The position numbers and the translations under genes are program-made. DNA of 20,472 nucleotides from a virus: positions 1 to 20,472 of IMG/VR virus record IMGVR_UViG_3300032053_000663, one strand, 5' to 3'. The notes under the pieces were generated by a model. The model saw only the letters and a program-made list of their open reading frames with translations. It was not told the origin of the DNA and did not search any database. Of the stretch, positions 1,905 to 15,219 are shown one piece after another; the first letter of the stretch is position 1, and every line of letters begins with the position of its first letter.

Positions 1905-2206
1905 ATGTCATTCCCATCAGGAATTACAAATATCAATAACCTTGCGCCCGAAGTTCCAGTGCAAGCGTTAGAAGATTTTCTTTCAACCCCTATGTTCAAT
2001 TTGATCCACTCATTTGGAGTTGATCTTTACCATGCCGAAGCATATCTCGGCAAAACAACACGTATGTCACGTTTTGAGCGTCTTAATACAGATGGCGGTC
2101 AGTTGGATGGTTCTGGTATTGACCCAGCATCAGAAGTGCCTGTTCGTTCTGATATCGATGCAAAAATGGAAATATTCGCAAAGTCTATTGTAGTTAATGA
2201 GCAGGT
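1905..2206 (+). CDS. Major capsid protein, exon 1 (N4-gp56-like)
   Basis: First 100 codons plus two bases of the major capsid gene. The start has GAGG at 1894-1897. The exon encodes the N-terminal arm and the segment ending in IVVNEQV, which in this family leads into a stretch of the form (x)DPVL...LLGxxMRExxDxLxRD; here that continuation is found only 833 bases downstream. Exon 1 ends after T2206, the base that forms the required U-G wobble with the intron guide sequence. If the intron is not removed, translation continues for 20 intron codons to a TAG ending at 2270 and gives a 121-residue truncated product. With exon 2 the protein has 322 residues, a normal size for N4-gp56-type capsid proteins, which carry the HK97 fold. 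The family assignment is by motif and position, not by database search. Confidence 0.85.
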
Positions 2207-3039
2207 CAACGATGAAATAGCCTGCTATAAATCCCTCCTGAATAACTTGGAAGGCCTGTTGGCTGCATAGCCTATGGTAACCAGAGGCAACGGTTTAAGA
2301 AGGTTTAATTAAGGAACCAGTACGACAATGAAGTGCTCTAATCTCATAAAAACATTGCTGACGAAAGTCAATGATATCTTGGCTCAAAGCCTGGGTTCCC
2401 TGCTTTCCTCCGATGCTAGAATGGGGTTTGAAAGTAGTACGAATTTTCAACATGATTTCAATCTGTTTGGTTTTAATAACCATGAAAGGTTGAACCAATT
2501 GGCAAATATGAGTCAACAAGTCACCAGTGGCAACCCATCGGTAATAAGCTTGTCGACTGTTTTTTGGGGTTTGCTTGGCAGAATACTTCCAAGAATTACC
2601 GCCAAAAGTGGATCGAAGCCAATTGATAAGATTCATGTCGGAATTTGTGATGCTAAGGATTGTTTGATAGTGCAAGACTCCAGTCTTTTTATTGGCAGAG
2701 TAATTACCAATAGTAAGACTTCCTTCTCCATCAATAATTCCAGCGAGATAAGCAACTTCTGTGTCTTTATACGTTCTTTTTATGTATTTGTCTTTAGGCA
2801 TTTTAACCTCATGATGAATGTCTATAGTACATTACACGATAAACACTTAAATGTCGAGCCGCAACGTAGCAAGCGGAGAGAGGGCGCACAAAGGTTTATG
2901 TGCGTTCAAGCGGTGCTCTAAACACTAGGGAAACTTAGTGAGGGGTAAGTAGAGAAAGCCCCCGCCACAATAAAGCGTCCTGCGAGACGTTAAAGAATGT
3001 GGTCAGTAGATCAATTAGGTGATCGAAAGTAATAGTTCG
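2207..3039 (+). ncRNA. Group I self-splicing intron in the capsid gene
   Basis: An 833-nt intron. P1 pairs exon bases 2200-2206 (AGCAGGU) with guide bases 2220-2226 (GCCUGCU), perfect apart from the canonical U2206-G2220 wobble at the 5' splice site. P10 pairs 2212-2219 (AUGAAAUA) with the first eight bases of exon 2, 3040-3047 (UAUUUUAU), so the last intron base is G3039. These ends also restore the reading frame. P7 is visible as 2916-2920/2950-2954 (CUCUA/UAGAG), preceded by a J8/7-like GUAAG. Further helices are 2923-2927/2936-2940 (P8-like), 2965-2969/2998-3002 enclosing 2974-2979/2986-2991 (P9-like), and 3009-3013/3020-3024. A hairpin CGCACA/TGTGCG lies near 2885-2905. I could not place P3-P6 with certainty and give no subgroup. 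A LAGLIDADG gene lies inside on the opposite strand. Confidence 0.9.
2295..2801 (-). CDS. LAGLIDADG homing endonuclease, antisense inside the intron
   Basis: A 168-residue endonuclease with a single LAGLIDADG motif (AYLAGIIDGEG, residues 17-27), where E26 is the expected metal-binding acid. The following beta strands (SLTIGNY, YQTILSITNSD) and the helix with a WLRSTFGG motif match the alpha-beta-beta-alpha-beta-beta-alpha core of this family. Single-motif enzymes of this size act as homodimers that cut a 20-30 bp site, usually the intron-less allele. GAGG lies five bases upstream of the ATG on the minus strand, so it has its own ribosome site. No convincing -35/-10 pair was found upstream. 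Its last codons overlap intron sequence near the 5' end of the core. The gene is antisense to the capsid gene and cannot be translated from the capsid pre-mRNA. Confidence 0.92.
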   Translation of the reverse strand: MPKDKYIKRTYKDTEVAYLAGIIDGEGSLTIGNYSANKKTGVLHYQTILSITNSDMNLINWLRSTFGGNSWKYSAKQTPKNSRQAYYRWVATGDLLTHICQLVQPFMVIKTKQIEIMLKIRTTFKPHSSIGGKQGTQALSQDIIDFRQQCFYEIRALHCRTGSLIKPS

Positions 3040-3706
3040 TATTTTATGGGAGAATCCTAAGACATATTCTAAATTTACTGCGCTACTTGGCCAGTGGATG
3101 CGTGAGAAGGAAGATTTGCTCATGCGCGACTTATTTTCTTCCAGTGTTTCCTATATCAACGCCACTGGCGGTGGTAACGGAGATTCTCCAAGTAACATCA
3201 GTTTGAATGATGTAAACAACATTGAATCAATTCTGTTGAATAATGATGGTAGAACGATGCTTGAAAGCATCGATGCCATGAATAAATTTTCGACAGGCCC
3301 CACCAGAGATTCCTTCTTGGCACTTGCAAGTACATCATTGACAAGAGATTTACAAGGGATTCAAGGGGTTTTATTGAAGAACGCATATCCTTCACAAGAG
3401 GGTCTTCGTCCTGAAGAATATTGTTCAGTAAGCCGCTTCCGTTTCTTTGTATCTTCTAAAGCTGCCAAGAAACCAGGTGCTTCGATGCGTGGTAACACAG
3501 TATATACAATCCCAATGTTTGGCTTGGAAGCTGCCGCTAAGATCGAGCAGAACCAATATACAGCCGTTATCGGCTCACGCCCTTCATGGGTTGTTTCCAA
3601 CGTGGCTCAAAATAGTGGACTGTATGCTCGTTTTGCAATTGCTCGCGCGATTACAAACACTAACTGGGTTTCTGGTTTGAATGTCACAACTAACCAAGTA
3701 ACCTAA
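3040..3706 (+). CDS. Major capsid protein, exon 2
   Basis: Second exon of the capsid gene, joined to 1905..2206. The first base completes codon 101 (GT+T, Val). The joined protein continues ILWENPKTYSKFTALLGQ and then WMREKEDLLMRDLF, the conserved spine-helix region expected after the exon 1 end. Downstream features include a glycine-rich loop (NATGGGNGDSPSN), a helical region around the spliced residue 145 (VNNIESILLNNDG) and a C-terminal beta-rich part. Before ATG 3098 there is no useful ribosome site, so independent expression of the 202-residue tail of this exon is unlikely. The stop is 12 bases before the next structural gene, consistent with a shared late transcript. Confidence 0.88.
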
Positions 3707-5617: not shown

Positions 5618-5651
5618 TATAATCACCACTTCACAAGGAGTGGTGATTATG
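5618..5651 (+). promoter_or_regulatory. Hairpin holding the HNH ribosome site, with an overlapping -10 box
   Basis: A perfect 11-bp inverted repeat (5619-5629 with 5640-5650) has a 10-base loop (5630-5639) containing AAGGA of the Shine-Dalgarno. The start codon ATG 5649-5651 sits in the right arm. Read-through mRNA from upstream would therefore hide the ribosome site and start. A perfect TATAAT lies at 5618-5623, overlapping the left arm; a transcript starting about seven bases later would lack the left arm and be open for translation. No good -35 box was found. The layout is like that known for T4 homing genes such as I-TevI; its use here is inference. Confidence 0.6.
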
Positions 5652-6149
5652 AAAAAATGCAAAGTATGTGGTGTTGAACAAGAAGAATTATTATTTCCTA
5701 GGGTGAATAGAAATAGAATTAAAGTGTGTTATTCACCAAAATGTAGAAAATGTTTAAATGAATATGTGCGATTAAAAAATCCTCAAAATAAAGAAAAAAA
5801 GAAAGCGTGGATTGAAAAAAACAAAGAAAAAATAAAGTTAAAAGTTCACGAAAATTATTTAAAAAATAGAGAGAAAGTTCTTGAAAGAACAACAAAATGG
5901 CGCAAAGAAAATAAAGAGAAATTTAAAAGAATTTGGAAAGATTCCAATGAAAAAAATTTAAATAAAAGAAAAGCAAGAAAAATAGTGGATTATCACCTAA
6001 GAAAGGGTAATTTGAAAAAACCAGAAAGTTGCAGTATTTGCAATAATAATTTCAATATTCAAGCACATCATGACGATTATTCATTTCCTTTAAATATTCG
6101 CTGGTTGTGTAGTCAATGTCATGGTATTGAACATAGAAAATTTAAATAG
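5649..6149 (+). CDS. HNH homing endonuclease
   Basis: A 166-residue, very lysine-rich protein. The start is ATG 5649, eight bases after AAGGAG (5635-5640); GTG codons at 5640 and 5643 lie on the ribosome site and are rejected. The N-terminus has a zinc-ribbon-like set (C4, C7, C27, C32, C35). Residues 45-110 form a basic helical linker, probably DNA-binding. The C-terminus is an HNH nuclease: C128/C131, then HHDDY (140-144), N149, then WLCSQCHGIEH (152-162) with C154/C157 and catalytic-type histidines. The gene is markedly more A-rich than its neighbours, a sign of separate origin. It sits between two structural genes and ends nine bases before the tail adaptor start, like a free-standing mobile endonuclease. 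It probably cuts endonuclease-less relatives at this junction. Confidence 0.88.
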   Translation: MKKCKVCGVEQEELLFPRVNRNRIKVCYSPKCRKCLNEYVRLKNPQNKEKKKAWIEKNKEKIKLKVHENYLKNREKVLERTTKWRKENKEKFKRIWKDSNEKNLNKRKARKIVDYHLRKGNLKKPESCSICNNNFNIQAHHDDYSFPLNIRWLCSQCHGIEHRKFK

Positions 6150-9750: not shown

Positions 9751-9783
9751 TTATCGACAGGATATGGGTAATATTTTACACTT

Positions 9784-9811
9784 CATGAAAAATCTACAGG
9801 AGTTTTTTATG
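9784..9811 (+). promoter_or_regulatory. Hairpin holding the second HNH ribosome site
   Basis: Left arm CATGAAAAA (9784-9792) pairs with right arm TTTTTTATG (9803-9811) over nine base pairs including one G-U. The 10-base loop (9793-9802) contains ACAGGAG, and the start codon forms the end of the right arm. This is the same geometry as the hairpin before the first HNH gene, but the stem is AT-rich and weaker. A TAATAT at 9768-9773 is the nearest -10-like sequence; it lies upstream of the whole hairpin. Confidence 0.45.
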
Positions 9812-10408
9812 AATAAGTGTAATAAATGCGGTAAAGAAGGAAAAATAATTAAACCAGGTCTTAGATGTTGGCGGTGTGTAAATGACTATAAAAACGATTG
9901 GGCACAAAAAAAGAAAAATAAACACTGTGATTATTGTAAAGAGCCATTTATACCAAACGGAAGAGCTTTAGAATGTAGCCTAAAATGCAAACTACTAAAT
10001 AGAATTAAAATTGTAAATGGATGTTGGGAATGGCAAGGAAAAATAACGAAATGTGGATATGGTGAAATAACTCACAACCAAAAATATATTTTAGTCCATA
10101 GATGTAGTTATAAGGAATTTTTAGGTGAAATTGAAATTGGTAGAAATGTTTGTCATACATGTGACAATAAGAAATGTATAAATCCTAATCACTTATGGAT
10201 AGGAACCCAAAAGGATAATATACAGGATGCCAAAAAAAAGAAAAGATTGTCAAAACAACCAATGAAAAAATTTACAATGGAACAGGTTGTTAAAATTAGA
10301 GCTGAGTTACAAGAGGGTATGACCACAACCTCTTTAGCAAAAAAATATAATGTATCACAAGGCGTTATATGGAATATAAAATCTGGAAAATCTTACAAGG
10401 AGGAGTAA
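9809..10408 (+). CDS. HNH homing endonuclease with C-terminal helix-turn-helix
   Basis: A 199-residue protein. ATG 9809 is chosen because CAGGAG lies six bases upstream; an earlier in-frame ATG at 9764 has only an AGGA two bases away. Residues 4-60 contain several CxxC pairs (C4/C7, C20/C23, C40/C43, C56/C60), likely zinc ribbons. Residues 71-133 are an HNH_3-type nuclease: GCWEWQG, then VHRCSYKEFLG, then VCHTCDNKKCINPNHLWIGT with H116 and H128 as candidate active-site or zinc residues. Residues 155-195 form a NUMOD-like helix-turn-helix (MTTTSLAKKYNVSQGVIWNI) for target binding. The gene is A-rich and inserted between the nozzle gene and a virion gene, as expected for a free-standing mobile endonuclease. 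Its stop overlaps the hairpin that precedes the next gene. Confidence 0.9.
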   Translation: MNKCNKCGKEGKIIKPGLRCWRCVNDYKNDWAQKKKNKHCDYCKEPFIPNGRALECSLKCKLLNRIKIVNGCWEWQGKITKCGYGEITHNQKYILVHRCSYKEFLGEIEIGRNVCHTCDNKKCINPNHLWIGTQKDNIQDAKKKKRLSKQPMKKFTMEQVVKIRAELQEGMTTTSLAKKYNVSQGVIWNIKSGKSYKEE

Positions 10409-14733: not shown

Positions 14734-14933
14734 GCATGAGGATTTTTTAACATAACTTTTGCGTCGACGACAGCATCTTTTAAAATCCATTCTGCATTAA
14801 TAGCTCTACAATATAATCTGTCGTTTTTATCTAAAGTTTGTTTTAAAAATTCTCTGGTTCCTTGCTCTGTCCATATTTGTAATAAGCAAAATATTGAAAG
14901 TGCTATTGTTATAGATAAGTGTAGTTTTTTCAT
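14718..14933 (-). CDS. Small membrane protein
   Basis: A 71-residue protein. Residues 1-21 (MKKLHLSITIALSIFCLLQIW) are a classic positively charged start followed by one hydrophobic helix, so either a signal anchor or an uncleaved signal peptide; no lipobox cysteine pattern is convincing. The remaining 50 residues are soluble and charged. GAGA lies upstream, and the ATG overlaps the TGA of the RHH gene, so the two are co-translated. The 3' end overlaps the KTSC gene by 16 bases in convergent orientation. Possible roles are superinfection exclusion, an antiholin-like lysis factor or another inner-membrane factor. The sequence alone does not decide. Confidence 0.65.
   Translation of the reverse strand: MKKLHLSITIALSIFCLLQIWTEQGTREFLKQTLDKNDRLYCRAINAEWILKDAVVDAKVMLKNPHAYERR
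14726..14748 (+). terminator. Possible intrinsic terminator at the convergent junction
   Basis: A six-base-pair stem with two G-U pairs (14726-14731 with 14736-14741), loop AAGC, is followed by A and six T residues (14743-14748). The preceding stop codon lies in the stem and loop. The stem is weak, so termination may be partial. It would end plus-strand transcription from the injection genes before the minus-strand pair. Confidence 0.42.
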
Positions 14934-15100
14934 GTTTTCTCTAAGTTTACTATTTTTATTTTTTCATTTTGTTTGGTTACAAATTCTCTAACTATTCTCT
15001 CTGTCTGTTGTGTCATAGACAGGTTATTAATCGCGCAGTAGACTTTATATTTTCTAAAAAGTTCATTCGGTAAACGAATTCTGACTACAGTATAGGCCAT
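14930..15100 (-). CDS. Arc/CopG-like ribbon-helix-helix regulator
   Basis: A 56-residue protein. ATG 15100-15098 is chosen because GGAGG lies four bases upstream on this strand; longer in-frame starts lack a comparable site. The sequence matches the ribbon-helix-helix fold. An N-terminal strand (VVRIRLP) would lie in the major groove as part of a dimer. Helix A follows (NELFRKYKVYCAINNLS) and then helix B (MTQQTERIVREFVTKQN). Arc of P22 has 53 residues and a similar layout. As a dimer it probably binds operators near its own promoter and perhaps that of the adjacent divergent fibre gene. Its stop overlaps the start of the membrane protein gene (ATGA). The fold is well supported; the target and regulatory effect are inferred. 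Confidence 0.85.
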   Translation of the reverse strand: MAYTVVRIRLPNELFRKYKVYCAINNLSMTQQTERIVREFVTKQNEKIKIVNLEKT

Positions 15101-15219
15101 TTTACCTCCAAAAGCAAGTGTCATTATGTGCGAAATAATAACATAAATTTTAATTATATTGTTGTTGCATCTTATTTTATTTGTTAATTTAAATTTCAAA
15201 ACCAACCATAGGAAAAATT
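15101..15219. promoter_or_regulatory. Divergent AT-rich control region between RHH gene and tail fibre gene
   Basis: A very AT-rich 119-base gap. On the minus strand a perfect TATAAT lies at 15158-15153 without a good -35 box. TTATGT (15124-15129) and ACATAA (15141-15146) form an inverted repeat with an 11-base spacer around the expected transcription start, a possible RHH operator. A 10-bp palindrome AATTTAAATT lies near 15187-15196. On the plus strand a weak TTGTTG/TAATTT pair with 17-base spacing may serve the fibre gene. AT-richness makes chance matches likely. Confidence 0.4.

Follow-up and report, generated by a model that had tools for sequence, protein, structure and literature searches.

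The stretch of DNA analyzed here (the window), a fragment of 20.5 kb, comes from an uncultivated virus that is best explained as a tailed phage. Near one end it carries a major capsid gene divided into two exons by an insert, and a gene for a LAGLIDADG homing endonuclease (HEG) is located inside the insert on the opposite strand (Table 1). The earlier note had described at this locus a LAGLIDADG gene, complete and on the minus strand, that has a GAGG ribosome site of its own and is placed within a group I intron whose splice sites fit a plus-strand phage capsid gene, and all these points were borne out by the comparisons given below. The positions assigned there to the finding (2295–2801) are those of the open reading frame alone; the intron is larger.

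Table 1. Features of the interrupted capsid gene, its intron and the antisense endonuclease gene (window coordinates).
Feature	Position	Strand	Details and basis
Exon 1, major capsid gene	1905–2206	+	3' end ...GAGCAGGU; alignment with uninterrupted relatives, P1, reading frame
Group I-like intron, 833 nt, final base G	2207–3039	+	Relatives without insert; P1/P10/P3/P7 pairing
Exon 2, major capsid gene, including stop codon	3040–3706	+	Alignment with L001; spliced product against TIGR04387
P1	2200–2226	+	Exon AGCAGGU 2200–2206 / guide GCCUGCU 2220–2226; U.G at splice site
P10	2215–2219 / 3040–3044	+	Guide loop AAAUA / exon 2 UAUUU
P3	2232–2238 / 2875–2881	+	UCCCUCC / GGAGAGA; hand-placed, letters checked
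P6a	2291–2299 / 2846–2856	+	CGGUUUAAG / CUUAAAUGUCG; hand-placed
Catalytic core	2866–2918	+	P7 5' strand GUAGCA 2866–2871; P8 hairpin 2884–2905; P7 3' strand UGCUC 2914–2918
P9 hairpin	2923–2940	+	CACUAGGGAAACUUAGUG
LAGLIDADG homing endonuclease (HEG), 168 aa	2295–2801	-	Antisense to capsid gene and intron
Shine-Dalgarno sequence GAGG of the HEG	2807–2810	-	Similar sites ahead of relatives' starts
Promoter candidate	2831–2857	-	TCGACA 2852–2857, 15 nt, TGTAAT 2831–2836; sub-consensus

The uninterrupted capsid gene of a related contig, L001, is 97% identical to exon 1 and 94% identical to exon 2. Among 80 capsid relatives, the site is uninterrupted in 75, and an intron is present at the same site in four. 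Joining the two exons on paper gives the junction GAGCAGGU-UAUUUUAUGG and a product of 322 aa, and the protein sequence at the junction (EQVILWENPK) is that read in the uninterrupted relatives. The spliced product showed similarity with the TIGR04387 model (N4-gp56 major capsid protein) over residues 9–269, spanning the junction (E 1.6e-14), with a score of 54 bits, slightly short of the cut-off (60 bits); L001, whose gene is intact, scored 60 bits, and wider relatives 80–82 bits. Since the AlphaFold2 model of an intact capsid relative was unusable (pLDDT 30), the identification of the capsid is based on TIGR04387 and, for the wider relatives, PHROG 1357. Queried against annotated phages, exon 2 gave no match.

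The insert has the anatomy of a group I-like intron. P1 is perfect (7/7 pairs), the final U of exon 1 (2206) is paired with a G of the guide, and the guide covaries with the exon in relatives (e.g., GAACAGGT/GCCTGTT). The 3'-terminal base of the intron is G3039, and P10 of the window comprises 6 pairs. Across the family, P10 has 4.0 of 5 pairs versus 2.85 in shuffled sets, with none of 5000 shuffles reaching 4.0 (33 unique introns), these shuffle tests leaving in the shared ancestry of the introns. The same P1/P10 rules restore the reading frame base-exactly at 56 introns of the site. As for the interior, manual placement was used for helices P3, P4, P6a, and P9; over the family, P3 pairs better with its own partner (6.46) than with permuted ones (4.92, maximum 5.52), and the P6a pairing also exceeds permutations. 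P7 occurs in relatives as GACUA/UAGUC, GACUU/AAGUC, and GACUG/CAGUC, the pair beyond the bulge covarying too, and the window contains a rarer form, GUAGCA/UGCUC.

The Rfam models gave no intron match at any setting in the window and 13 related loci, including the intron of mycobacteriophage LittleE, so the assignment to group I rests on comparative structure. The miss is regarded as a limit of the models because the LittleE intron, missed as well, is spliced in vivo (PMC3706429). Taken at the level of sequence comparison, the insert is confirmed as a group I-like intron with predicted splice sites at 2206/2207 and 3039/3040. Matches to the Rfam int-alpA RNA above the curated threshold were found in two contigs with capsid introns (L082:3882–3942, minus strand, and L094:2114–2183, plus strand).

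The HEG begins with an ATG at 2799–2801 and occupies the P6a loop; its stop codon (2295–2297) falls within the 5' strand of P6a. The protein matches Pfam LAGLIDADG_1 above its cut-off (E 1.8e-6) and PHROG 5046 (E 2.5e-23). It contains a single motif, LAGIIDGEG, in which D24 and E26 are invariant in 13 relatives. The protein was modeled with AlphaFold2 (pLDDT 85), and Foldseek gave I-CreI as the best match of the model (E 1.4e-8). According to this model, the protein is probably an I-CreI-like, homodimeric LAGLIDADG enzyme. It shares with the homodimeric I-CreI/I-MsoI family the single motif and the predicted fold, whereas the sequence identity is 18–20%, the motif reads DGEG instead of DGDG, and the gene is antisense to its intron. 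No clear palindrome marking a cut site was found in the surroundings of the predicted target.

The 69 unique complete HEG proteins of the family have no internal stops. The median dN/dS was 0.116 (maximum 0.24) in 40 HEG pairs with nucleotide identity of 70–97%, and changes were distributed over the three codon positions as 1371/831/3401. As judged from these substitution patterns, the frames of the HEG family are under strong purifying selection.

As for expression of the antisense gene, the -35-like hexamer of the promoter candidate in the window (TCGACA) overlaps the 3' strand of P6a. A standard promoter scan of the window was near chance level, and the candidate was absent from its output. 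In many relatives, TGTACA or TAGACA is followed after 16–17 nt by TATAAT, about 37 nt ahead of the HEG start. A minus-strand sigma-70-like promoter was detected in 22 of 47 dereplicated loci versus 4.0 in shuffled sequences (maximum 11 in 300 rounds) and 4 on the opposite strand; the loci were thinned to <75% identity for this count, and those remaining are still related. The signal could come partly from the RNA, the -35-like hexamer being within a conserved ribozyme stem. Separate timing of HEG expression and capsid transcription is plausible and gains indirect support from the minus-strand promoter-like sequences of relatives; we infer it with reserve, because the candidate in the window is sub-consensus and unreported by the standard scan, the hexamer is part of an RNA helix, and the loci are not wholly independent of each other. 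A bolder proposal, that the minus-strand promoter of this phage lineage uses the P6a stem as its -35 element and that the antisense RNA tunes capsid splicing, seems to us rather improbable; if true, a single stretch of DNA would serve both splicing and antisense endonuclease expression.

A scan of viral contigs with the single HEG sequence yielded no relatives, and an alignment was required as the query. In the best 80 loci from this protein-only search, the HEG was always antisense to the capsid pieces, which were found on both sides of it in 74 loci and on one side in 6. In a second search with distant HEG members, 57 new loci were tallied, of which 40 were antisense to capsid, 1 (L298) was sense, and 16 had no capsid nearby. 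Several of the latter look free-standing or are accompanied by a sense intron core, and two have a core on the opposite strand (rough motif test). Consequently, the HEG lineage is antisense in 120 of 121 capsid-linked loci (the best 80 together with 40 of 41). In addition, a search with a pattern of the site found 25 contigs, mostly with an antisense LAGLIDADG gene, three with a sense one, and three with none, others being cut by contig ends. Because the pattern search is biased to the guide sequence of this intron, we relied on the protein searches for the orientation counts. In the phylogenetic tree, the antisense HEGs formed one group (support 86/84), separate from the sense lineage. Matches in bacterial genomes were mostly distant; one of them, L187, falls in a group with phage L181, its HEG running antisense to pieces of capsid.

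The same intron site also harbors a sense LAGLIDADG lineage (L090, L091, L093, L267–L275), in which 9 of 9 loci with a capsid match are in sense, and introns without a gene (L102 and L106, 337 and 334 nt). The frame of the sense lineage crosses P4', P7, and P8, with its stop at the P7 3' strand, whereas the antisense genes are placed in the P6a loop. This contrast in anatomy fits the proposal that the antisense placement would let the intron fold without the passage of ribosomes. In L171–L174, the antisense HEG is located in a different loop, 5' of P3. Related introns with antisense HEGs are seemingly inserted a few bases downstream, in the EQVTL region, in L111, L115, L117, L122, L137, L140, L146, and L156. 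Capsid genes with seemingly at least two introns were noted in L084, L099, L118, L153, L269, and L274, with up to about four cores in L118.

The histories of the HEG and the capsid are incongruent. The HEGs of the window and L161 are only 41% identical, although their capsids are 85% identical; meanwhile, the window HEG is 50–55% identical to HEGs residing within capsids of only 33–37% identity. Such a mismatch is expected for a mobile element and, as far as these identities tell, is a mark of horizontal movement. Intronless alleles (L001–L080) read GAACAAGT, GAGCAAGT, GAGCAGGT, or GAACAGGT at the site, and the intron-bearing alleles found have CAGGT endings only, which fits either target choice or co-conversion.

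The earlier note had held that antisense homing genes are known mainly from nuclear rDNA introns. Such rDNA cases do exist, e.g., the antisense His-Cys HEGs of the Didymium introns Dir.S956-2 and Dsq.L2066 (PMC9548176), but a phage precedent has been described as well, in LittleE (Pope et al. 2013, PMC3706429; JF937101). There, splicing of the intron in the capsid gene gp13 was verified by RT-PCR in infected cells, and the intron carries the bottom-strand LAGLIDADG gene gp14. LittleE and the window are alike in having a group I intron of about 0.8 kb in the major capsid gene, a U as the last base of exon 1, a G as that of the intron, and a bottom-strand LAGLIDADG gene related to I-CreI. They differ in the capsid and the insertion site, and the LittleE HEG is located in a 3' peripheral loop (read by eye) rather than in P6a. 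The similarity of gp14 to the window HEG is marginal (28 aligned residues, E 9e-5 in a two-sequence comparison), and gp14 is on a very long branch of the HEG tree. The nuclear introns resemble the window in that the HEG is opposite to the host gene and the ribozyme and that its own promoter was proposed; they differ in the eukaryotic rDNA host, the His-Cys enzyme, and the polyadenylated mRNA with spliceosomal introns. Group I introns of T4-type phages are likewise mobile introns in essential phage genes, but their HEGs are in sense and encode GIY-YIG or HNH enzymes (PMC2988022). In T4, the free-standing segD is the only HEG opposite to its neighbors.

LittleE was the only phage precedent found in open-access papers, and neither a survey of Bastillevirinae introns from 2025 nor one of phage HEGs from 2023 contains the word antisense. 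An antisense HEG in a phage intron is thus already known as such. What seems to be novel, as far as open-access papers go, is a widespread and apparently independent antisense lineage, together with its placement in P6a and the promoter-like sequences. A single reported oddity (LittleE) thereby becomes a widespread pattern over a large and diverse capsid gene family. Antisense, sense, and gene-free introns at one site form a natural comparison set, which makes it possible to test an old question, namely how a homing gene carried by an intron can be expressed while the splicing of that intron stays unharmed, and whether the orientation makes a difference.

Taken together, the data point to a mobile group I intron in the capsid gene that carries an antisense HEG on its own promoter and homes into intronless alleles; we assign this reading a probability of roughly 87%. 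The capsid transcript would include the intron, which would fold through P1 on exon 1, P10 on exon 2, and the P3/P7 core, and its self-removal would allow normal capsid production. For its expression, the HEG would rely on a host-type promoter and a Shine-Dalgarno sequence of its own, independently of the capsid transcript. In a co-infecting phage whose capsid gene has no intron, the enzyme would cut close to the site of insertion, after which repair would copy the intron into the cut allele. Splicing in vivo, minus-strand transcription, cleavage, and homing are steps that we infer; the presence and absence of the intron, together with the incongruent histories, fit cleavage of the intronless allele.

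Several other explanations were considered. The frame overlaps the P6a stem, as might be seen in a chance or decayed ORF opposite a ribozyme, but its Pfam, PHROG, and fold matches disagree with this, and the dN/dS of 0.12, together with the frames of 69 unique relatives, all free of internal stops, refutes it, leaving it a negligible chance. It is also very unlikely that the insertion is unspliced and the capsid gene broken or used as a truncated fragment: such a gene was rejected on the basis of P1/P10 pairing and the base-exact frame restoration at 56 introns, and both exons retain 94–97% identity to the intact L001. Antisense read-through begun elsewhere, in place of an own promoter, would agree with the weak promoter candidate in the window; however, all recognizable structural genes surrounding the HEG are on the plus strand, and consensus-like promoters precede the start in many relatives by about 37 nt, which makes this source of expression improbable.

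Two explanations concern the orientation itself. The minus-strand RNA might pair with the intron or hamper its transcription, delaying capsid splicing, and the antisense orientation might be kept for this regulatory effect. Its maintenance over a deep clade would agree with such a role, as would the span of the promoter candidate and the HEG across the P6a loop, but the site also retains HEGs in sense orientation and introns without any HEG, and the observed selection acts on the protein, so that we consider a regulatory role unlikely, if a little less so than read-through. Alternatively, the orientation may be a neutral frozen accident, a single entry of an antisense HEG with its promoter into the P6a loop that was then spread by homing. 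This proposal competes only over why the orientation was kept, not over the identity of the element, and we give it an even chance. The grouping of the antisense HEGs apart from the sense lineage and the movement of the HEG among capsid lineages speak for it, whereas the antisense genes in the loop 5' of P3 (L171–L174) and in the 3' loop of LittleE hint that antisense may be favored.

Further genes of the window deserve mention. A PHROG 2340 endonuclease (5640–6149, plus strand; E 3.5e-30) and an HNH_3 endonuclease (9764–10408, plus strand) are each located between structural genes and are apparently free-standing. In addition, a small minus-strand gene (14930–15205) with a weak match to an Arc-like repressor (PHROG 582, E 5.6e-5) adjoins the tail fiber gene.
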